From NCBI RefSeq assembly GCF_014217335.1, contig NZ_CP060092.1, positions 2,683,501 through 2,747,500 on the forward strand: 64,000 bases of DNA, in the 5' to 3' direction. Under the pieces are notes generated by a model. That model did no database searches, was not told where the DNA came from, and saw nothing but the letters and a program-made list of their open reading frames with translations. Numbering within the stretch: position 1 is the stretch's first letter; each line of letters opens with the position of its first letter. Positions 4,642-17,321 of the stretch are shown here, in pieces. Both the position numbers and the translations under genes were made by a program. The DNA is from Teredinibacter purpureus. GTDB lineage: Bacteria > Pseudomonadota > Gammaproteobacteria > Pseudomonadales > Cellvibrionaceae.

Positions 4642-4994
4642 TCGATAGAGGCTCACAATATACCCGTAAGCGCTATCGAAAACTTCTAACTGCTTACGAT
4701 ATTCGGGCGAGTATGGGGTACGTTGGTGCCTGTTGGGATAATGCGGTTGTTGAACGCTTCTTCGGAAGCCTTAAACACGATCGGATATTTAATATTGCGC
4801 AGCCGACAAGAGCGCACATGAAGACTGACGTGGGCAAATATATGCGCTACTACAATGTACATCGTTTGCATTCGGCGAATGAAAATTTATCGCCAATAAA
4901 ATACGAAGAATCCAAGTATGTTCTGCAAAATGGAAGAGTCGGTTCTGCTCGAACAGAGCAGGTTCGGCACTTCGATTCTGCAGTCAACAAGTGA
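4641..4994 (+). pseudogene. IS3-family transposase, C-terminal fragment
   Basis: The frame DRGSQYTRKRYRKLL, then SMGYVGACWDNAVVERFFGS and LKHDRIF, is the C-terminal half of an IS3-type integrase-core transposase. It contains the second catalytic Asp (DRGSQY) and the final Glu (VVERFF), followed by the usual YYNVHRLHS tail. The N-terminal half, orfA and the left inverted repeat are missing: the fragment begins exactly at the stop codon of the preceding secreted-protein gene. It ends with TGA at 4992-4994, overlapping the next open frame. It cannot move on its own. Confidence 0.85.
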
Positions 4995-5482
4995 AGCGTG
5001 TTAGCAGGGGATTTATAAAAATAGGTGTCCGGTTTTACTTGGCCAGAACATGCAAAGTCGGGTTCAATAGAGGGAAATATAAATGCGTAGCCTTTGATTT
5101 TCTAGGTTATACGTTTAGGCTTCGCTGGATCAAGACAAGAAAAGGTGGGCAAGGACTTTATTTTCTTGCAGTGATTGGTCAGAAATCGGCTAAGGGAATA
5201 CGGCATGAAATAAATAGCTGGCCTTGGAAGTGTTGGTGTCAGAAAGAGTTGAAGGACATAAATAGTTACAGGAGTAACAGGCTACGTGGTTGGATGAACT
5301 ACTATAGTCTGTTTGGGGCTAGCATTATCCGTAATGTATTATTCCACTTCGATAAGCGTTTGAGTCGTTGGGGGAAAGCTAAATACAAAAAGCTCAAGAC
5401 ACTGATGCAGGCAGCACGTCGGGTTAACCCAATAAGGAAGGAAATTCTCGTTGGTTTCCCCATTGGAGTGTTGCTTAGATGA
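4991..5482 (+). pseudogene. ltrA: group II intron reverse transcriptase/maturase, C-terminal fragment
   Basis: The 163-codon frame matches the tail of group II intron-encoded proteins. FDFLGYTFRLRW marks the end of the reverse transcriptase domain. The maturase (X) domain follows, including NRLRGWMNYYSLFG and LSRWGKAKYKKLK, with a degenerate end (FPIGVLLR) where such proteins usually carry an HW..GV motif. All catalytic RT blocks upstream, including YADD, are missing, so it is non-functional by itself. It is joined directly to the IS3-type fragment and is followed within 25 bp by intron domain V, which confirms the identity. Confidence 0.88.
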
Positions 5483-7908: not shown

Positions 7909-7944
7909 TGAACAGGATGTTTCAAGTTTGAACATTATGTTTTC
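7909..7944 (+). promoter_or_regulatory. paired imperfect palindromes, candidate operator
   Basis: TGAACA-GGA-TGTTTC (7909-7923) and TGAACA-TTA-TGTTTTC (7929-7944) are two copies of the same TGAACA-N3-TGTT dyad, spaced exactly 20 bp start to start, about two helical turns. They lie 55-90 bp upstream of the KAS III-like gene. Fis-type helix-turn-helix proteins bind dyads of this kind, and the second gene of the downstream pair carries such a domain, so autoregulation is a reasonable inference. Confidence 0.5.
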
Positions 7945-7999
7945 GTTTTGATATACCCTCTAAATTCCATTAAAAACAACTAAAATGAGGAAAAAAAAC

Positions 8000-9004
8000 A
8001 TGGAAATTAAAGGTAGTTCAATGATAGCGGGTGTTGGCGCTTTTTTACCAAAGCAGCGCGTTAAATCGGATGATCTAATGCTTGAAAGTAGGTGTTTCAG
8101 ATTTGGAACACCTGTAGATTACATTTCTAAGTCAATTGGAATAATTGAGCGCCGTATTTCCGACGAGCATGTATTGCCGTCCGACATGGCAATAGAGGCT
8201 TCGCACGTGGCATTGATAGATGCGTCAATAGCGGCCTCTGAGCTTGATCTGATAATCTATTGTGGTATCGATCGAGATTGGCAGGAGCCTGCAACATCGC
8301 ACCGCATTCAAGTTGAATTGGGTGCGCTAAATGCGAGTTGTTTCGATGTGTCTAACGCTTGCCACGGTTTTATGGATGGAATCTCGATTGCCAATTCTTT
8401 TATCGAAAGCGGGTCTGCGAGAAAGGTGTTGGTATGTACGGGGGAGAAACCTAGCAGGGTGTTATATATGGCGCTTAAGGAGTTGCGTCAAGTAAAGTCA
8501 AAATTGGCCTTTAAACGCATGCTTGGCGCGTTAACGGTTGGTGATGCAGGGGGCGCCATGGTAATTCAGGCGAAAGGTGAGAGCGATTCGGGAGGGCTTC
8601 AGTGGATGCAAAGTTATTCTGAAGGGAAGCATGCCGACCTTTGTTATTACCGCCATACAAAAGACGGTTATGACGGACAAATGCTTATGAGGGAGATTAC
8701 CTTGCAGATCGCAAAGCTCCATAAACGATTAATTGAAAAAACGTACGACAATCTTTGTTGGTTACCGAGCGATGTAGACCGATTGTACTGTCATCAGGTT
8801 GGTGAAAAACCACATGCGACCTTGGTTGGCATTGCAAACAAAACGTTAGACAGCGCGCCGATTACTTATCCGCAGTTTGGCAACTTGACCAGTGCTAGTA
8901 TTCCTGTGAATATGTACCTCAACCCCCCTGAAAAGGGAGATAAACTACTCATTATGGGAACGGGAAGTGGTCTTTCTGTTTGCCAAGCAGGAATGGTTTT
9001 CTAG
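8000..9004 (+). CDS. 3-oxoacyl-ACP synthase III (FabH)-like condensing enzyme
   Basis: A KAS III-type thiolase-fold enzyme that joins an acyl-CoA-derived starter to a second acyl unit. The full catalytic triad is visible: Cys121 in SNACHGFMDG, His265 in YCHQVGEKPH and Asn295 in FGNLTSAS, with the GTGSGLS glycine loop near the C-terminus. I start at ATG 8000 because a GAGGA site lies eight bases before it; the frame is open to an ATG at 7985 that contains that site. Length (334 aa) is normal. It is divergent from housekeeping FabH and stands outside any fatty-acid cluster. The next gene starts 4 bp after its stop, so they form one operon. Related stand-alone KAS III-like enzymes (PqsD, PpyS, DarB) make signals or secondary metabolites. 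Confidence 0.85.
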   Translation: MEIKGSSMIAGVGAFLPKQRVKSDDLMLESRCFRFGTPVDYISKSIGIIERRISDEHVLPSDMAIEASHVALIDASIAASELDLIIYCGIDRDWQEPATSHRIQVELGALNASCFDVSNACHGFMDGISIANSFIESGSARKVLVCTGEKPSRVLYMALKELRQVKSKLAFKRMLGALTVGDAGGAMVIQAKGESDSGGLQWMQSYSEGKHADLCYYRHTKDGYDGQMLMREITLQIAKLHKRLIEKTYDNLCWLPSDVDRLYCHQVGEKPHATLVGIANKTLDSAPITYPQFGNLTSASIPVNMYLNPPEKGDKLLIMGTGSGLSVCQAGMVF

Positions 9005-9008
9005 CTAG

Positions 9009-9914
9009 ATGGAGTTATATTTCTTACCCGCTATCTTCGCGATTTCCGCGAAGATAGCGTTATTTGCAATCGGTTGGCGAGCTGTTCGATTCATCGAAAA
9101 AAGTTTGCTACTCTTCCTCATAGGTTTATCTGTCGTCAATATCATTGAGTTGACGCTCCTTTATTTGGCTTCGCAAGGAGGAGAGGCGTTTTTATTTATA
9201 ATCCTCTACTACGATGCTGCAATAATATCTTGTTTTACGTTCACTTATTACGTGCTCAACCTTAATAAAACACTGTCACTCAAAATAAAACGTACCCTTA
9301 TTGGGTTTTGTTTGTTTGTGGTGTTATGTGTTTCTGTTCCTGGGCTTGCCTTGGATTCCGCTATTTCCATTGGGTATTCTTTTACGCGCGTACCAGGGCC
9401 CTTTTATTTTGTTGTGCAATTAGCCTTGTTATTGTGTGTTGGTGTTGCGTTCGTAGCACTATTTAAATCGCTCTGGATCGATGACGATTTGATACGCACA
9501 CGCGCCAAAGTTATGTTGCTTGCCTTAAGCCCGTTGATGTTATCTGTGATGGTAGTACTTGCTGTGATGCAATTAGGGTACGAAGTGAATGCCACGGTTG
9601 TCATTTCTATAGCAACCTCTTTTATGATGGCTGTTTTGGTCGTTGCTGAGTCGAAATACCGTTTGTTTCAGTTGCTATCGCTAATACCTGCAACGCATGA
9701 GCATAAACAGTGGACGCGTATTGCTGAAATACTCAATAACCCAGACCTTAGTTTAAAGGAAGCGCAACTTAAGTTTACAGAGTTATTTGTGGCTGATGCG
9801 GTAAAGCGGGCGAACGGGAGCCAGGTTAAAGCGGCTAATATATTGAATACTTCTCGCACCACTATTTACCGTTATTCCGTTGATGCCTTACCCGATTCAG
9901 ACAATAGTGATTGA
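9009..9914 (+). CDS. seven-TM protein with C-terminal Fis-type helix-turn-helix
   Basis: A 301-residue protein. Residues 1 to about 215 hold seven hydrophobic segments resembling the membrane sensor regions found at the N-terminus of some histidine kinases. A short cytosolic linker follows, then at about 262-290 a Fis/HTH_8-type DNA-binding motif (AVKRANGSQVKAANILNTSR, then TTIYRYSV). There is no kinase, receiver or AAA+ domain, so it looks like a membrane-bound one-component regulator. It starts 4 bp after the KAS III-like gene and is therefore co-translated with it. Inference: it senses a membrane-soluble product, perhaps that of its partner, and acts at the paired dyads upstream. I know of no named family with exactly this architecture. 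Confidence 0.75.
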   Translation: MELYFLPAIFAISAKIALFAIGWRAVRFIEKSLLLFLIGLSVVNIIELTLLYLASQGGEAFLFIILYYDAAIISCFTFTYYVLNLNKTLSLKIKRTLIGFCLFVVLCVSVPGLALDSAISIGYSFTRVPGPFYFVVQLALLLCVGVAFVALFKSLWIDDDLIRTRAKVMLLALSPLMLSVMVVLAVMQLGYEVNATVVISIATSFMMAVLVVAESKYRLFQLLSLIPATHEHKQWTRIAEILNNPDLSLKEAQLKFTELFVADAVKRANGSQVKAANILNTSRTTIYRYSVDALPDSDNSD

Positions 9915-9993: not shown

Positions 9994-11163
9994 TTAATAT
10001 GGCCGGTTAAGCGTTAAGTCAGAAAAAATTATCGCTTCTTGGTCGATAAATTCGCCTAAGTCGCGCATAGCAGGGAGCAGTTTTGTATCTGCAAATTCAC
10101 AGCCACTTAGGCCTGGGTCTTTTTGTCTTTCTTTGCCGCTGCTTTCGTGTGCATGGCCTTGTCTATTAAGCAAGCGTTCCAATAGCGGCTGATAGCCTGT
10201 TTTCCATGCGGTAACGTCAGGAAAGGTATTTTTCAGCGACTTTAAAATACCTATACCGGCAAAATCGAGATCGCCCCAAAATTGAACGTTGAATGTTGAA
10301 GGTGTTGTGGCATTACACCACCAGTGCTCAAAGGCGGTGGCAGAGGCTACATGGCTATTGGGTAAATAGCTGAATGCTACGTTTCCTTGTTCTCGAATGC
10401 GCGTAGCACTGCCGCGAAAGCCAGCGCTGTAGACAAAGGCTATGCGAGGGGGTTGGGCTTGAGCAAGAGCAAGAAAGGTGTCTTGATTTTCGATAAATAC
10501 AATACGCTCGAAGCGTTCTGGTAAGCACACATTTAATAGCACAGGACGTGGCTGCAGGTTATGGCTCGCTGCGGGAAAAAGACTACGCACTAGCGCTTCT
10601 CGGTGATCAAGAAATTTTGAGTCTCCCCAAAAACAACGCGCTGAAAGTGCACGTAAGCTAATCGATCTCTGCAGTTCTTTATTTAGCCGCGCGAAAGCGT
10701 GTAATGTCTGTTCTGCGCCCTTGTCGGGTAAGCGTATAATCTGCTCGTAAAGCGTTTGGCCGTGATCTTCAAAATTGGCGTGGAGTTTTCGTAACGTATC
10801 TTGCCAGACAAGAGCGTAGGGATCGAGTGCGGGGCGGTTTAGCCAATGTCGAACCAACTCCTCTTTATCGGGGTTAAAGACCAATTGAGCGTTGTCGTAG
10901 GGTTCTTGGTAGGGTTTGTTACGAGCATAACGAATGGAGAGTATGTGGTATTCGTTATTCAGAGATTTGATTAGCGTCCAGAGGTATTGAGGTTCCTCTG
11001 TGTCAAAATTGAACAGCTCGGGCAAGGTTTTACTCGAAACGCGTAAGCTTAAGCGTTGGCCTTTTTCCAGTTTATGAATAAATGTATCGAGAAGGCTTGC
11101 GATCATTGGCTCTTCATCGGCCCACCGCGGCCGAGAGCGGAGCATTGGTTCGTCCATATTCAT
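9994..11163 (-). CDS. jetD: Wadjet subunit JetD, Toprim-type nuclease
   Basis: The nuclease of the Wadjet anti-plasmid system, which cleaves small circular DNA after loop extrusion by the JetABC complex. The 389-residue length fits JetD. The N-terminal DNA-binding arm region is followed by the C-terminal Toprim fold, visible as VFIENQDTFLAL (conserved Glu) and FWGDLDFAGIGIL (the D-x-D metal-binding motif). It is the last gene of the jetABCD operon, starting 88 bp after jetC ends. All four genes appear intact, so the system should be active. Confidence 0.92.
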   Translation of the reverse strand: MNMDEPMLRSRPRWADEEPMIASLLDTFIHKLEKGQRLSLRVSSKTLPELFNFDTEEPQYLWTLIKSLNNEYHILSIRYARNKPYQEPYDNAQLVFNPDKEELVRHWLNRPALDPYALVWQDTLRKLHANFEDHGQTLYEQIIRLPDKGAEQTLHAFARLNKELQRSISLRALSARCFWGDSKFLDHREALVRSLFPAASHNLQPRPVLLNVCLPERFERIVFIENQDTFLALAQAQPPRIAFVYSAGFRGSATRIREQGNVAFSYLPNSHVASATAFEHWWCNATTPSTFNVQFWGDLDFAGIGILKSLKNTFPDVTAWKTGYQPLLERLLNRQGHAHESSGKERQKDPGLSGCEFADTKLLPAMRDLGEFIDQEAIIFSDLTLNRPY

Positions 11164-11251
11164 GGCAGGGTACTCGCGAGTTGTATGATGTTAGCAAATG
11201 AACAATTCGCTTACACGGGAATCTAAATTCTCGGCCACGAAGCGGTTAAAT

Positions 11252-14200
11252 TTAAATTCCATCCATAAAATCTAGCATACCTTGGTGTCGCACTGTTTTG
11301 CGATGGTTTGCCCACAATTCTTTAATTTTTTCTTGGTTACAGGCTTTTCTATCGACCAGTACGCGCGTGTTCAGCTCGCCTACCTTGTGCGCGGTTGGGC
11401 ATTTACTGAAAACAAATTGATTGCTGATTAAATCCATAAACGGGCCAGATTTGCTCGTAGGCATGATGAAGACTAGTTGTAGCCCCAGCGTTTCGGTCAG
11501 ATAATGGATAACTTCACGAGAGCGTGTTTCATCCATTTTAGAGAAGGCTTCGTCTACCAGTACCATGCGCAGATGAGCATTGCCTTCGCTAAAGCGAAAT
11601 GCCGAGGTGACGGCGGCGGACCGGATGATATAGGCGGGCGTTTCCAGCTGCCCACCCGAACCCGTACCATACTGGCTGAGAGCGATAGGCGCTTTATTTA
11701 AAGGTTCTTTGTAGATCTCGTAATTACGGTAGTTGCGATAATCGCTGATGCGGTTTAATTCTCGGAGTGCTACTTGTTCATCAGTGTCTAGCAACATTAC
11801 TAGCATTTTGTCGCGAATAATACAGGCTTTGGGTGAGAGCTCGGCATCAAATAAATTGGAGCCGTCGCCGAGGTTGGGTATGTTGATGACTTCTTGAAAA
11901 AACCGCCAGTAATCTCTAAATTCCGGCACCCACTCGTACCCAAAATAAAAGCGTTCTTGATCGGCACCAAAGCGATGCCCTTCAAGTTCACTGTTTAAGT
12001 GCTTGAGTGTTCGTTCACCTTCGCCAATGGCTTGGTAAATGGAGTGGCAAAGATTGGTCACAAATGCGGTGTTAAAATTATCTTTTAGGCCTGTGAGCTG
12101 CTCGTAACGATCGACAAGGACATTGTTTTTGAGGCGGTTATGTATAAGATCGACTTCGGTTCGTAATTTTACTAGCCGTTGAAAGAACTCATTATCATGG
12201 CGCTCACCAAAGCCTGTGTCATAAACAATTGCGTCGTGCGGGTTACATTGTTGGTTGTGTCGTAATATGGTTTGGTAGAGTTCGCGCTCTATTTTTTCTA
12301 AGCTGCCGAATAATGTTTTTGCTTCCTCTTCAAAATTAAAATCTGTACCGGCCTGTTGTGCCCGCTGCTCCGCTAGCGAGAGGGCTTGATCATAATCGAA
12401 TTCAGGGTTCCAGTCTGAGATGCGTTCGATTGCGACTTCAGCATCTTCTTGTGCTTCCTGGAAAATCTCTACGGCATCGGCTAGTTCAGTGACTTTTTTA
12501 GCATTTTGGCGTTCGCGTTCTTGTAAGCGCCCAGTATCTTTGACGAGATCACGGCTTTGAGTTTCTAGCGCAAGGTAAGAGGTTTTTAGATCGTGCAATT
12601 GACATTCAAGATGTTCGAAATCGCTTAGGTCAAGTCTTTCGAGGGCTGATTCCGTACTTTGAATATCACGGTGCAAGTTTAGAATGGTCTGAATAACGTC
12701 TGCACACTGCACGGTTTTTATGGCTTCTACCGATTCAAAAATACGCGCAATACTTTGGTAATCTTGCTCGGCGCTATTGGCGTCAACGGCAAGTTTTTCA
12801 CATTCGTTTTCTTTGGCTTTAAGGGCTCTTTCACGTGCGCCCTGGCCAAAGACTAGTTCGCTGTCGTCTAAATCGCAGCGCCACATAGAGTAGTTTCCAG
12901 AGGCTAAGCCTTCGGGCGTAATACCACGTGAGGTACTGCGGAGCATTTTTGCATCGTTAACACGCACCACAGAGCCATAGGAAGCCTTTAAATAATGCTC
13001 TGCTGTTTTGTGGCTAAACGACATCACATCGGTAACAGATTGTTGCGGCAAGGATAATCGTTCGGCGTCTCGTTGTGCTTTGTAGCCTTGTATAACCCGT
13101 GCTCGGTTGCGTCGGGAATCGGAGAGGTTGCGGACAATTCGAATGGCCTCCGCTTCGTAATCTTGTTCGACTATTAGTGAAAAACGCGCGCCGCCAATGT
13201 AGCCTTCAATGGCCATTTGCCATTGTGGATCTAGTACTTCGATATAATCACATAGTACTCGTGGGTCGGCTTGTGGGCAGTGTTTTTGTATCGCGGCAAT
13301 GGCTGTTTCGACATACGGCGGGTAACTGACTTTACGACTATTGAGTAATTGAACTTCTTTTTGTTTCTGTCGCAGCCGTGTTTGTAGTTCGTCTCGTTTT
13401 CTATTTTGATTCGATAGTTGCAGGGAAATTTGGTCACGTATACCGCTATTGCCGTTTTCAGAGGGCCGATGTAAAAACTCAACCCATCGCCGATGGTCAA
13501 CTTCGGCGAGGTTGACCTGGTGTAGAAAACTCTCGAGCGGAGCGGTATCTATCCAGTCATTGCCGAGTAGTCGTGTTAAATCAAAGTCGCTTAACTCCGC
13601 GGTTGCCGTTACCGATTTTGCAAGGTTACGAAACGCTTTGCTTTCTAGCGCTGGGATAGCAATGGCGAGTGAGTATTGATTCAAGCCTGCGGTTAATTGT
13701 TGGCTAGCATGAATGTTGGTTTCTAATTGTTGATGCTGTTCTAGTAGCGGGCGAGCTTGGGTTGTTAGCTCGCGATTAGCGGTATCTTTGGCTTGCTCTA
13801 GTGCGTCTTTATCTTTAAGCGCGCTAATGCCTTGGCGTTGTGCCTCTAGGGCGATAATGTCTTCGTGCGTTTGGCGGCGACGCTGCTCGCATTGTTGTAT
13901 TTTATTTTCACTTTCCAGTAAGCTTTCGTGCGTTTCTTTTTGTGTGGTTTTTGCGTTGATATAGGCTGCGCTTGTGGTGCTTAGCCGACGCGAAGCTTCG
14001 GTGTAGTCGGCGAGTCTTCGTTCCATCCATGTGTCGACATAACGGTTGGCGTTGTGGGTGGCCGAGGTCAATGTTTCGATTGAATCGCGAATGGCTTTGG
14101 TATCACTTTCCATTTGATGAATGGTTTTCATGAGTTCAGAAACATTGCGAATGGCATCGCCCAAGTCTTTGGGCTCCATTATTTCGCGGGCTACAAATTC

Positions 14201-14890
14201 ATTGATGCTTTTGACGGGTTTGTAAGCCATAAAGTTTGAAAAGGTGCGCGCCGCATGTTTGGCTTCTCTGTCCGAAACGGCTTCACGTCGGCCGCGTAGC
14301 GCGCCATATAACCGACGTAAATACGCTCCTTTTTTATCGTACACTTCAATTGTTTTTGAGCCGAATTCCTTTTTCAGTAGCGTAGTAATATCCGTGATCG
14401 GAATAATGTGTTTACCGTCTGGGAATTCTCGAACAAAATGAGAGAGTGCTAATTGCTCACCCGGTACCACTAAAAACGTTAAGTCATCTAGGCGCGCCTG
14501 TTTTTGCGTGCCCGCATTGTCAACGTGCGCGCGCATACACATTACCGCCGTAAATACTTCGCCGCTTTCGCCTTGGGTGGGATGAAAAATTCCGGCTACA
14601 TATCCGTCCGTGGGGTGTGGGCGTGCGTAGCTTCCATCGTCACAGCCTAGAACGTAGGATGCGAGCGTGCGAACTTGTTTTCCTCCACGGCCTCTTTGGG
14701 TCGTTTCGTCTTGGCCGGGATTGTAATTGAAGAGGTTTTCGTGCGCGGCAGTCATTAGTGTTTGAATGGCGTCGGCCGCTGTTGTTTTTCCAGAACCGTT
14801 GCCGCCGGAAAATAAGTTAATGGGGCCAAAATCGAACTCAAGGTGGGGGATGTTTCCCCAGTTTACGAACACGCCACGTTTTAAAAACAT
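11252..14890 (-). CDS. jetC: Wadjet subunit JetC, SMC/MukB-like ATPase
   Basis: The motor of the Wadjet complex: a 1212-residue SMC-type ATPase that extrudes DNA loops. The Walker A motif GGNGSGKTT is at residues 29-37. Long coiled coils fill the middle on both sides of a hinge region around residues 530-640. The C-terminal head carries the signature-like QYGTGSGGQ and the Walker B segment VLVDEAFSKMDE. It begins one base into the jetB stop (TAATG), so translation is coupled. Length matches type I JetC proteins. Confidence 0.95.
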   Translation of the reverse strand: MFLKRGVFVNWGNIPHLEFDFGPINLFSGGNGSGKTTAADAIQTLMTAAHENLFNYNPGQDETTQRGRGGKQVRTLASYVLGCDDGSYARPHPTDGYVAGIFHPTQGESGEVFTAVMCMRAHVDNAGTQKQARLDDLTFLVVPGEQLALSHFVREFPDGKHIIPITDITTLLKKEFGSKTIEVYDKKGAYLRRLYGALRGRREAVSDREAKHAARTFSNFMAYKPVKSINEFVAREIMEPKDLGDAIRNVSELMKTIHQMESDTKAIRDSIETLTSATHNANRYVDTWMERRLADYTEASRRLSTTSAAYINAKTTQKETHESLLESENKIQQCEQRRRQTHEDIIALEAQRQGISALKDKDALEQAKDTANRELTTQARPLLEQHQQLETNIHASQQLTAGLNQYSLAIAIPALESKAFRNLAKSVTATAELSDFDLTRLLGNDWIDTAPLESFLHQVNLAEVDHRRWVEFLHRPSENGNSGIRDQISLQLSNQNRKRDELQTRLRQKQKEVQLLNSRKVSYPPYVETAIAAIQKHCPQADPRVLCDYIEVLDPQWQMAIEGYIGGARFSLIVEQDYEAEAIRIVRNLSDSRRNRARVIQGYKAQRDAERLSLPQQSVTDVMSFSHKTAEHYLKASYGSVVRVNDAKMLRSTSRGITPEGLASGNYSMWRCDLDDSELVFGQGARERALKAKENECEKLAVDANSAEQDYQSIARIFESVEAIKTVQCADVIQTILNLHRDIQSTESALERLDLSDFEHLECQLHDLKTSYLALETQSRDLVKDTGRLQERERQNAKKVTELADAVEIFQEAQEDAEVAIERISDWNPEFDYDQALSLAEQRAQQAGTDFNFEEEAKTLFGSLEKIERELYQTILRHNQQCNPHDAIVYDTGFGERHDNEFFQRLVKLRTEVDLIHNRLKNNVLVDRYEQLTGLKDNFNTAFVTNLCHSIYQAIGEGERTLKHLNSELEGHRFGADQERFYFGYEWVPEFRDYWRFFQEVINIPNLGDGSNLFDAELSPKACIIRDKMLVMLLDTDEQVALRELNRISDYRNYRNYEIYKEPLNKAPIALSQYGTGSGGQLETPAYIIRSAAVTSAFRFSEGNAHLRMVLVDEAFSKMDETRSREVIHYLTETLGLQLVFIMPTSKSGPFMDLISNQFVFSKCPTAHKVGELNTRVLVDRKACNQEKIKELWANHRKTVRHQGMLDFMDGI

Positions 14891-15621
14891 TATGTGTTCT
14901 CCTTTTTGGTTGTTGTATCACTAAAGAGCGTATTGCCTGCAATAGTCTCAGGCTCTTCGTCTGTTTGTTCTTCTGCGGTGTTGGTGTCGAATGTTGTTTC
15001 GTCCATTAAGCTGCTAAGAATTTCTTCTGTAACGAAACTGGTAATGGTGGGCTGAATGCTTAACCAGCTTTCATCACTATCAAGTTCATCTTCAATATTA
15101 AATTGAATTAATCTTAGCTGGCGCAAGCGAATGAAGAGTTTTTTTCGTTCCACAAGGCTTTCGGGAAGGCTACGTTTCAATAGGTTGTTGATGGCAATAG
15201 CGAGACCTTCGAGTGACAACAATACTTGCCCTTTTTCATTAATCTGACCTTCGCGCAGTGCTTTTTCATATTCGGCGCGTAGCACCAATATTACGGCGAC
15301 TTCTTGTTGGCTAGGACGTGAGCGAAAGCCGCTGTTGAAAGGGGAGTTTTCGTCATCGGGCATGCCGGGTATTTCGGCTCCTGGTGGGTACGCACGCACA
15401 AAACAAAATTGTCGGTCGTGCTGTAAACGAATACCGATAATCTGTAGATAATCCTCCACCAAATTTTTGCACTGTAGATAGCGGTCGTAGAGTGCACATT
15501 CTACTTGGCTTTCATTGCGGCAGATTACGCCATAATCCAACAGGCGTATGAGAATTTCGGAAAATTCTTCTTGTCGAATTCCAGACGTTTTAAGTTGTTC
15601 GGTGATGAAGGTGTTGATCAT
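14890..15621 (-). CDS. jetB: Wadjet subunit JetB, MukE-like kleisin-associated protein
   Basis: The MukE/MksE-like winged-helix protein that binds the kleisin in the Wadjet complex. I start at ATG 15621 (243 residues, [10 protein letters not shown]), because upstream codons are basic and unlike the family although the frame is open to 15711. The body has the expected DUF4194-type look ([36 protein letters not shown]). The tail after residue 210 is acidic and low-complexity (EEQTDEEPE). It is coupled to jetC by a 1-bp overlap and follows jetA after 132 bp. Confidence 0.9.
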
Positions 15622-15753
15622 TATGTTGCTTCGCAATTCCCGTGGGCGGGAGGTGGTTGTTTTTAGTTGAGCACGCTCGTGCTTATTACATGTTCGCCAG
15701 TTTTTGGGCAAGGATGGCGTAAGTATTGTGGTGCAAACAAAGCATTATCTATG

Positions 15754-17196
15754 TTAGGGCTGTGTATTGTTGGGTGCGCTTAACTCAATTGTGAATTCGT
15801 CTAATTCGCGATAATACACGGTGCTTATTCGGTTGCCTGTGGGCTCTACGATAAACTGATGTTCGCTGCTCAGATTATTGACTGCGCCTACCTCGACGAT
15901 ATGGGCCATTGCGAGCAGGTCGTTTGCTGTTTTGACGGGCAGGTGACGGCTCGATATCTTTTTGCCGGAGCGGAGCGCTTGGATGACATAATCTCGTACG
16001 TTCTGGTTGTTGATGGAAAACGCTTGGTCGAGTAGCTGTTGAATAAGAATTTCGCGTTGAGCATTTTTATCAACAGCTTCTTCCTCGTGAACTGCGGTTT
16101 GCACCTGTTGTGTTTGACGACGTTCATGCAGTTTGATTTGCGCGGGATCGGTAAGCTGCACTTTAACGGTGGCTAGATGTTCAGCGGCCGCTTGCATGTT
16201 GTGCGTATACTCCGCTTCTGGAAGTGCGCATAGATGTTGACAGACTTGTAGTAAATCGTTATTTGGTTGGCTATTTAAATAGCTGAGCTGGCGAATAATG
16301 ATGTCCGCTCGTTTGGTAAAGCTGTGTAATGCACGCCGTAAGGCCGGTAGCATAATATCGGCGGCATTGCCCATGCGTCTTTCGATTGTGTCTAGTATGA
16401 GCCAAAGCACGGATTGACCGGGAATTGCGAGTTCGGGCACTAGCCTACGCAGCTGTCGTTCGATTTGTTGTTTTGAGTCGTTCTTTTTGCGCCGAATCTT
16501 ACTGATAGCTTTATGGATTTGATCACGATGTTTTTCAACGCTATCGGCCGAGAGGCGTACCGAAATGTCGGGCTGAAAACGCTTTTCCATAAATTCAAAA
16601 AACTGTTCAGTAGCTTGCTCTACCAATTGTTGAGATTCAACTTCGCGAACCAGCTCGCGTTTGCGTTCTTCTAATTCTGATATTACATCGGTAAAGTCGG
16701 TGACGATACGTTCTGAGTATTCAAAAGCGTCGAGTAAATCATGCACTTCGCCGCGATTTATAAACGCATCAAGTGCGTTTAAGGTATTGCGGGTATTTCG
16801 GTGTCGTGTACGAATTTGGGTGCTATCCGATTCAACCAGCGGTTGCGTGAATAAGCGCCCCATTCGGCTGAAAGGGTAGGTGGATTGCATAGTCGCGGTG
16901 TCCACTTGTTTTTCTAGCCAGCCAAACTCTAATAATTGTTTGAGGATCCAATTGGCTTGTTCTCGGTTACTTTTAAACCGTGTTTCTTCTTCGCCATCTT
17001 CCGATTCCAGTACTGGCGCCCGAACGAGTGCTTCTTCGAGTATTTCAACGACTTGCTCGCGGGAAAGTGACGAGCCATAGTCGGCATTGGAGCTATATAG
17101 CCGCTGGTATAGCAAGCATAAGCATTGCACGACCTGTTCACGGTATTTGCTCGTGAGTGGTTTAAAGAAGTTTTCGCGTTCTGGGGTGAAAAACAT
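15754..17196 (-). CDS. jetA: Wadjet subunit JetA, MukF-like kleisin
   Basis: The kleisin of the Wadjet complex (DUF5716 type), which bridges the SMC heads. I choose ATG 17196, giving 480 residues beginning MFFTPERENFFKPL; the frame extends to 17280 but the extra codons are atypical. The N-terminal winged helix (YREQVVQCLCLLYQRLY) is followed by helical, coiled-coil-rich middle parts (LEERKRELVREVESQQLVEQ) and a C-terminal winged-helix region (RQLDEF-like end). First gene of jetABCD; the promoter should lie in the 125 bp before it, where I see no clear consensus. Confidence 0.9.
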   Translation of the reverse strand: MFFTPERENFFKPLTSKYREQVVQCLCLLYQRLYSSNADYGSSLSREQVVEILEEALVRAPVLESEDGEEETRFKSNREQANWILKQLLEFGWLEKQVDTATMQSTYPFSRMGRLFTQPLVESDSTQIRTRHRNTRNTLNALDAFINRGEVHDLLDAFEYSERIVTDFTDVISELEERKRELVREVESQQLVEQATEQFFEFMEKRFQPDISVRLSADSVEKHRDQIHKAISKIRRKKNDSKQQIERQLRRLVPELAIPGQSVLWLILDTIERRMGNAADIMLPALRRALHSFTKRADIIIRQLSYLNSQPNNDLLQVCQHLCALPEAEYTHNMQAAAEHLATVKVQLTDPAQIKLHERRQTQQVQTAVHEEEAVDKNAQREILIQQLLDQAFSINNQNVRDYVIQALRSGKKISSRHLPVKTANDLLAMAHIVEVGAVNNLSSEHQFIVEPTGNRISTVYYRELDEFTIELSAPNNTQP

Positions 17197-17321
17197 ACTA
17201 AATACGTACAACCTGGCGTGAAACTGGAAGCGTATGTTAGTGGTTTCTGCGGGGGAAAGAAACGCTCTTTTAGCCTGCAAAGGGCTTGTGTATTACGTTT
17301 GGGAGGTTGGGGGTTAAAACG

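Follow-up and report, generated by a model that had tools for sequence, protein, structure and literature searches.

A conserved gene pair of an OleA/PpyS-type ketosynthase and a seven-helix membrane protein with a Fis-type domain, a proposed synthase–receptor cassette of marine gammaproteobacteria

Introduction

Photorhabdus makes the diffusible photopyrone signal with PpyS, a stand-alone ketosynthase of the β-ketoacyl-acyl carrier protein synthase III (KAS III) fold that requires a glutamate residue (E105) corresponding to the catalytic Glu of OleA (described in an excerpt of PMC4578411), and the receptor of this PpyS/PluR system is LuxR-like. In the CqsA/CqsS and LqsA/LqsS systems, a dedicated synthase is encoded together with its cognate membrane sensor (excerpt of PMC3376566); there, the synthase is pyridoxal phosphate-dependent and a histidine kinase starts a phosphorelay. 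Of the OleA proteins considered in PMC7064751 (excerpt), all but two carry Glu117 followed by Pro, and the mechanism is there called unique to OleA homologues. In this study, we analyzed a 64,000-nucleotide stretch of the Teredinibacter purpureus genome (contig NZ_CP060092.1, positions 2,683,501 to 2,747,500; hereafter, the window), in which a gene for a KAS III-like ketosynthase is followed after 4 nt, on the same strand, by a gene for a seven-transmembrane (7TM) protein with a C-terminal helix-turn-helix (HTH). Both open reading frames (ORFs) are intact, and this layout, first noticed in a reading of the DNA alone (the sequence-only reading), was confirmed in every part.

The locus combines features of these systems and departs from each of them. 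The ketosynthase resembles PpyS in its KAS III fold and its OleA-type catalytic Glu, but its neighbor is a 7TM protein with an HTH_8 domain and not a LuxR-like receptor. As in CqsA/CqsS and LqsA/LqsS, a putative synthase stands beside a membrane protein, whereas here the enzyme is a KAS III and direct DNA binding is predicted. OleA is the nearest solved relative by single-sequence comparison and has the Glu-Pro and Cys-His-Asn residues in common with it; however, no ole-type neighbor recurs beside the pairs, and a membrane regulator is found instead. Among the matches listed in the open-licence PubMed Central (PMC) literature, no description of a KAS paired with a 7TM-HTH protein was found. 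The pair is a conserved, putative synthase–receptor cassette of a type for which we found no description in that literature.

Results

Pairing and distribution of the two genes

The clade of ketosynthases that includes the window enzyme was surveyed in a family sample of 144 genomes, a class-wide sample of 369 and a phylum-wide sample of 398, and in a scan of named genomes that kept 80 loci (L093–L172) of at least 531 relatives. In the scan, L093–L095 repeat pairs counted in the family sample, L096–L120 are 25 further loci of the clade, and L121–L172 lie outside it. The clade ketosynthase occurs in 13 of the 144 family genomes (20 matches, one of them a contig-end fragment whose downstream side is not visible), and the 7TM-HTH protein, hereafter the receptor, in 14 (29 matches). 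All 19 ketosynthase genes with a visible downstream side are directly followed by a receptor gene, at gaps of −32 to +40 when every frame is begun at its first start codon. In the class-wide sample, seven of 369 genomes carry a clade ketosynthase; the six besides T. purpureus hold ten such genes, all adjoining a receptor, nine with the receptor downstream on the same strand and one tail-to-tail, an inversion (L224). Only T. purpureus itself carries one among the 398 phylum-wide genomes. The named-genome scan adds a receptor homolog at 23 of the 25 further loci (the match at L103 ends before the HTH), and the only two without one, L118 and L120, have broken ketosynthase frames. The genome-neighborhood check therefore found co-occurrence and not the absence of it that the sequence-only reading had named as the result that would count against it, since 52 of the 54 ketosynthase genes examined adjoin a receptor (individual genomes may occur in more than one sample). 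These data establish the pair as real and conserved, and this ketosynthase clade is strictly coupled to the 7TM-HTH protein.

Outside the clade, a receptor was found at none of the 52 loci within the DNA examined, which covers less than 1 kb downstream at L137 and L162. Downstream ORFs could be scanned at 48 of these loci and included 28 α/β hydrolases, six AMP-binding enzymes and two epimerases, a set that recalls oleB, oleC and oleD of ole operons. No ole-type family recurs among the neighbor clusters beside the pairs. No other gene is conserved clade-wide beside the pair, and the flanks mostly differ; local synteny is common to up to 11 loci in metagenome-assembled genomes of marine Pseudomonadales, and a few close relatives have single neighbors in common.

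The ketosynthase and receptor trees are congruent, with r = 0.88 over 42 pairs as compared with 0.20 for the best of 2000 permutations. For this comparison, long receptors (see below) were trimmed to their first 270 residues, and L116 (broken ketosynthase), L044 (partial), L041 (near-duplicate of L040), L118 (no partner) and also L105 were left out. Up to three pairs occur in one genome, and these are mutually divergent. Of the 29 family-sample receptors, ten lack a synthase gene of their own next to them; five of these are isolated, three come immediately after a receptor that is itself paired, and the other two are located roughly 3 kb upstream of a pair. Such unpaired receptors resemble LuxR solos; examples, either single or in a tandem pair, are seen at L043 (8180–10094), L045, L050, L051, L058 and L039. 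At the Motiliproteus locus L116 (4977–8072), the ketosynthase is broken and two tandem receptors are intact; this genome may still listen for the product without making it. An order-wide receptor search (profile A1) was swamped by HTH-only matches and was not used for the counts.

Identity and catalytic residues of the ketosynthase

The window enzyme matches the Pfam families ACP_syn_III (E 1e-14) and ACP_syn_III_C (E 3e-8). By single sequence, its best match in the PDB is 3row (E 8e-30), which we take to be OleA of X. campestris; in a search with the family profile, 2ebd (3-oxoacyl-ACP synthase 3) scored slightly higher than 3row, 181 bits versus 171 bits. The score against the FabH model (TIGR00747) is 121 bits as compared with a cut-off of 292. 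The Cys-His-Asn triad that the sequence-only reading had seen is indeed intact (Cys126-His270-Asn300), and Glu101-Pro102 is kept too. The latter aligns with the OleA glutamate that reaches into the partner subunit, at chain position 103, which by the numbering offset would be the published Glu117. In an alignment of 44 clade ketosynthases (L116, L044 and L041 left out; L118, without partner, included), Glu-Pro and Cys are present in all 44, His in 43 (one gap) and Asn in 42 (two gaps). The glutamate is also retained in 53 other ketosynthases of the named-genome scan; the nearest relatives of the clade are therefore OleA-like. A further two KAS III-like genes found in the 4.89-Mb T. purpureus genome both lack it. 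Ordinary fatty-acid synthesis does not account for the enzyme, because the catalytic glutamate is kept and the FabH score is far below the cut-off. By its sequence, the window ketosynthase is of the OleA/PpyS type and not a FabH.

The receptor and its Fis-type domain

The AlphaFold model of the window receptor (predicted local distance difference test score, pLDDT, 92.8; predicted template modeling score 0.86) has seven helices followed by a C-terminal HTH, with HTH helices at residues 249–267, 272–279 and 283–293. The window protein scores 17.7 bits against Pfam HTH_8 (E 0.003, cut-off 22), and 47 of 50 homologs match this family at E ≤ 0.01; a receptor profile (A3) matches Fis with an E value of 1e-7. 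On these sequence and model grounds, the C-terminus is assigned as a Fis/HTH_8 DNA-binding domain, and the membrane regulator with a Fis-type HTH that had been read from the sequence is borne out. The strongest motif of the family includes the hairpin between transmembrane helices (TM) 4 and 5 and has the consensus PGxAIxGxxSIGYSxTRxPGP.

The receptor may be related to HisKA_7TM sensors, to which the window protein gives a full-length match of 18.5 bits (E 0.0019; gathering score 28.6), with weak-to-moderate matches in 22 of the 50 homologs at E ≤ 0.01. Neither a kinase nor a receiver or ATPase domain was detected in the window protein; in the Pfam matches, neither it nor the 50 homologs showed a kinase domain, and no AAA+ family appeared among the 50 short receptors. 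Foldseek with the short receptor model returned nothing at E ≤ 0.001. A further likeness is to the PEP-CTERM two-component system PrsK-PrsR, in that one long receptor gives a PEP_resp_reg match (E 2.5e-8) at its C-terminus. Unlike the HisKA_7TM sensors and PrsK, whose make-up we assume for this contrast, the window receptor joins a sensor and a DNA-binding domain in a single chain, with no kinase domain found.

The start of the receptor gene (9029–9059) holds a perfect 13-bp stem with a 5-nt loop (fold z −2.85 for 8985–9105), which was not seen by eye in the T. turnerae gene; it is possibly a translational control element or a chance structure.

A sister clade with long receptors

Long receptors are encoded at nine loci (L107–L114 and L117; 834–884 amino acids in these nine) and also in genome G829. 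In the ketosynthase tree, this sister clade has 11 tips, including two decayed loci, versus 34 in the window-type clade, and the pairing holds in it despite the different receptor architecture. The model of one long receptor (pLDDT 73.6) shows seven helices, a coil, receiver-like and AAA+-like domains and an HTH, together with a GAF-like domain as judged by eye. Its best Foldseek match is NtrX (E 5e-12), a receiver-AAA+-HTH protein, and by sequence the long receptor matches ZraR (1e-12). The long forms thus align with members of the NtrC family (NtrX, ZraR, VpsR), but Walker A and GAFTGA motifs were found in none of the nine, the window-type receptor has no AAA+ part, and the position that we presume to be that of the receiver acidic pair reads RDK in all nine. 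Because of these missing and altered motifs, both receptor forms seem incapable of phosphorelay and of sigma-54 remodeling. The long receptors are perhaps decayed NtrC-type activators turned into membrane receptors, and they suggest a route by which parts of a two-component activator could become a one-component membrane receptor.

Palindromes at the pair promoter

The two TGAACA-N3-TGTT dyads reported from the sequence alone exist exactly where they had been placed (Table 1). This pattern occurs at 31 sites genome-wide versus 10 for the reversed control, and the dyads at the pair promoter are the only listed sites less than 100 bp apart; the tandem as a direct repeat has a shuffle p of about 0.10. 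All eight of the other sites examined (of 29 outside the pair) lie within ORFs of at least 100 amino acids. The tandem is therefore unusual, but there is no sign of a regulon-wide motif.

A promoter palindrome, as the sequence-only reading had proposed, is supported by TTTCA-N4-TGAAA rather than by those dyads. This form comes from a distant subclade of 11 marine Pseudomonadales loci, ten with enough upstream DNA, where it is exact in seven of ten upstream regions and has one mismatch in two. A second dyad of the same subclade, TGTAGGA-N5-TCCTACA, occurs with at most one mismatch in eight of ten, and in the remaining two, L063 and L096, the arms are 4 nt apart instead. Among 317 control upstream regions, none came within two mismatches of the second dyad and none held an exact first one. 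The distant pair L068 has TGTAGGA-N5-TCCTACA with two mismatches and TTTCA-N4-TGAAA with one, 71 bp apart as compared with 63–70 bp in the other loci. Genome-wide, TGTAGGA-N5-TCCTACA was found at six places in nine genomes (four had none), five of them within about 250 bp upstream of a pair. Its core GTAGGA-N5-TCCTAC has eight exact sites in eight genomes, five at the pair and three elsewhere (one inside an ORF); with one mismatch allowed, it shows no excess (36 places versus 137 for the reversed control). The only other exact TGTAGGA-N5-TCCTACA in genome G516 (L216, 2982–2998) is located some 230 bp in front of an ORF resembling, by eye, an HD-domain phosphohydrolase, a possible second target.

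When TTTCA-N4-TGAAA was carried to the other 35 upstream regions, which include some close relatives and L118 without its receptor, six including the window held it with at most one mismatch versus five of 317 controls (p 2e-4). T. turnerae has an orthologous pair, with a ketosynthase 74% identical to that of the window. Between the window and T. turnerae promoters, TTCA-AGTT-TGAA aligns with ATCA-TTTT-TGAT, in which the arms change in pairs, and TTTTGA-ATACCCTCT, near the possible promoter, is common to both. The shorter form TCA-N4-TGA, a less fair test because the pattern was chosen with the data in view, is present in eight of 29 ketosynthase upstream regions versus one of 316 controls; without the six regions that suggested it, the count is two of 23 (p 0.013). 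De novo searches used 29 upstream regions, 17 of 46 having been left out as redundant, short or broken. In the first search, palindromes scored 27.3 at a width of 14 (six shuffles, at most 23.2), 25.4 at 16 (up to 28.4) and 34.2 at 18 (up to 32.7), and the strongest non-palindrome, which resembled a ribosome-binding site, was set aside. These comparisons support well a predicted pair-promoter palindrome in the distant subclade and lend moderate support to a candidate palindrome at the window promoter (7920–7933), which the partner HTH may bind.

Table 1 Features of the ketosynthase–receptor locus in the window
Feature	Position	Strand	Remark
First dyad of the sequence-only reading, TGAACA-GGA-TGTT	7909..7921	.	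Present, not conserved
Dyad TTTCA-AGTT-TGAAC, candidate regulator site	7920..7933	.	Lies between the two dyads of the sequence-only reading
Possible promoter TTGAAC-N18-TATACC	7928..7957	+	By eye; not among the promoter-scan predictions
Second dyad of the sequence-only reading, TGAACA-TTA-TGTT	7929..7941	.	20 bp from the first, overlaps possible −35; not conserved
Proposed signal synthase, an OleA/PpyS-type ketosynthase of the KAS III fold	7985..9004	+	339 aa
Second in-frame ATG of the ketosynthase gene, alternative start	8000	+	
Glu101 codon; aligned counterpart of OleA Glu117, which acts as general base in the partner subunit	8285..8287	+	
Cys126 codon, putative acyl-accepting nucleophile	8360..8362	+	Conserved in 44/44 clade ketosynthases aligned
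7TM + HTH gene, proposed receptor/regulator	9009..9914	+	301 aa
7TM sensor part, residues 2–224	9012..9680	+	Positive-inside rule places N outside and C inside
TM4–TM5 extracytoplasmic β-hairpin, residues 113–131	9345..9401	+	
Fis/HTH_8 DNA-binding helices, residues 249–293	9753..9887	+	Fis profile match, AlphaFold helices

Discussion

We propose, with a probability of roughly 0.6, that the pair is a mobile cassette in which the ketosynthase makes a lipid signal for its own membrane one-component receptor, which acts on DNA and is probably autoregulated. Signalling is the role that best fits the cassette; the ligand, the direction of regulation and the traffic between cells are parts of it that we infer. 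The synthase would join two acyl thioesters head-to-head, in a reaction where the acyl chain on Cys126 of one subunit is deprotonated by Glu101 of its partner, and the product would be a β-keto acid or a derivative such as a ketone or α-pyrone. This product may partition into the membrane and diffuse between cells. In the receiving protein, the ligand could enter the 7TM bundle beneath the TM4–TM5 hairpin and change the dimerization of the C-terminal Fis domains, altering binding to the palindrome at the pair's own promoter and probably elsewhere too. The signal would then pass straight from membrane to DNA, as in a membrane one-component regulator. What the sequence-only reading had proposed stands for the stand-alone non-FabH KAS III, the membrane Fis-type regulator, the conserved pairing and the promoter palindrome, but not for its dyads as written.

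Several results weigh against the signalling reading. No exporter or acyl-supply family recurs beside the pair among the neighbor clusters, in which neighbors were not annotated singly. Paralogue-specific co-evolution was not supported, the true within-genome pairing ranking only 22 of 144 swaps. TGAACA-N3-TGTT was rejected as a conserved operator; no exact copy of its inner part, AACA-N3-TGTT, is present upstream of the 17 other family ketosynthases or the 28 other receptors examined. A clade-wide de novo palindrome was likewise rejected after a repeat search of the 29 upstream regions, in which the observed score was reached by four of 20 shuffles and ten of 20 control sets at a width of 12 and by no shuffle of 20 but three of 20 control sets at a width of 14; the repeat search also gave another best motif than the first. 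The GPCR (G-protein-coupled receptor)-like structural match of the receptor is barely above the chance level of helical bundles.

The location of the sensor in the membrane would also suit a role in lipid homeostasis, in which the enzyme makes a structural long-chain ketone or β-keto lipid and the 7TM-HTH protein reads the membrane state or the product level in an intracellular feedback on its own operon. OleA-type enzymes make precursors of membrane hydrocarbons (excerpt of PMC7064751), and the dyads at the pair promoter suggest autoregulation. However, a signal fits better than a housekeeping lipid because the distribution is patchy (13/144 family and 7/369 class genomes), several divergent pairs occur per genome, and there are extra unpaired receptors; we regard homeostasis as unlikely. 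Regulators often adjoin their target gene, and the receptor might instead sense an outside cue and control the ketosynthase, whose secreted product (e.g., an α-pyrone antibiotic) it would not itself sense. Relatives of PpyS produce antibiotic pseudopyronines (excerpt of PMC4578411). This explanation is less probable again, given that the cassette persists through a change of receptor architecture, one inversion (L224) and mostly different flanks, that no other gene is conserved across the clade, and that receptors multiply without synthases. The strict pairing and the frequent 25-nt gene overlaps (first start codon of each frame) could also be read as a sign that the ketosynthase serves the receptor as a protein partner or a cofactor, with no small product involved, but its catalytic residues are retained and solo receptors exist, which makes this very improbable.

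A broader form of the signalling proposal would make the cassette an undescribed class of cell–cell signalling, with a fatty head-to-head product of an OleA-type ketosynthase, a GPCR-like 7TM receptor fused directly to a Fis domain and neither kinase nor phosphorelay. Such a cassette would move among marine gammaproteobacteria, its divergent copies would act as parallel channels, and solo receptors would eavesdrop. We hold it tentatively, at somewhat less than even odds. If the signalling proposal is true, Teredinibacter, a shipworm symbiont, and further gammaproteobacteria of the sea would gain a signalling family, and a new type of receptor would be tied to the OleA/PpyS enzymes. It would also provide an example of a seven-helix receptor working directly as a transcription factor, in a two-gene cassette open to testing in E. 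coli.

Flanking genes

Directly downstream of the pair and convergent with it, a Wadjet system occupies 9994–17280 on the minus strand, with PADLOC matches to JetA, JetB, JetC and JetD (type 1 models). A defense role of the pair, suggested by this neighbor, was rejected; neither the ketosynthase nor the receptor gene has a PADLOC match. The window jet genes have no homolog in the contexts (about 12–20 kb) of the other family pairs. On the other side, a group II intron maturase of which a C-terminal fragment is left (GIIM, E 1e-6) lies at 4991–5482 on the plus strand, and the stretch upstream of the pair looks like mobile, decaying DNA.

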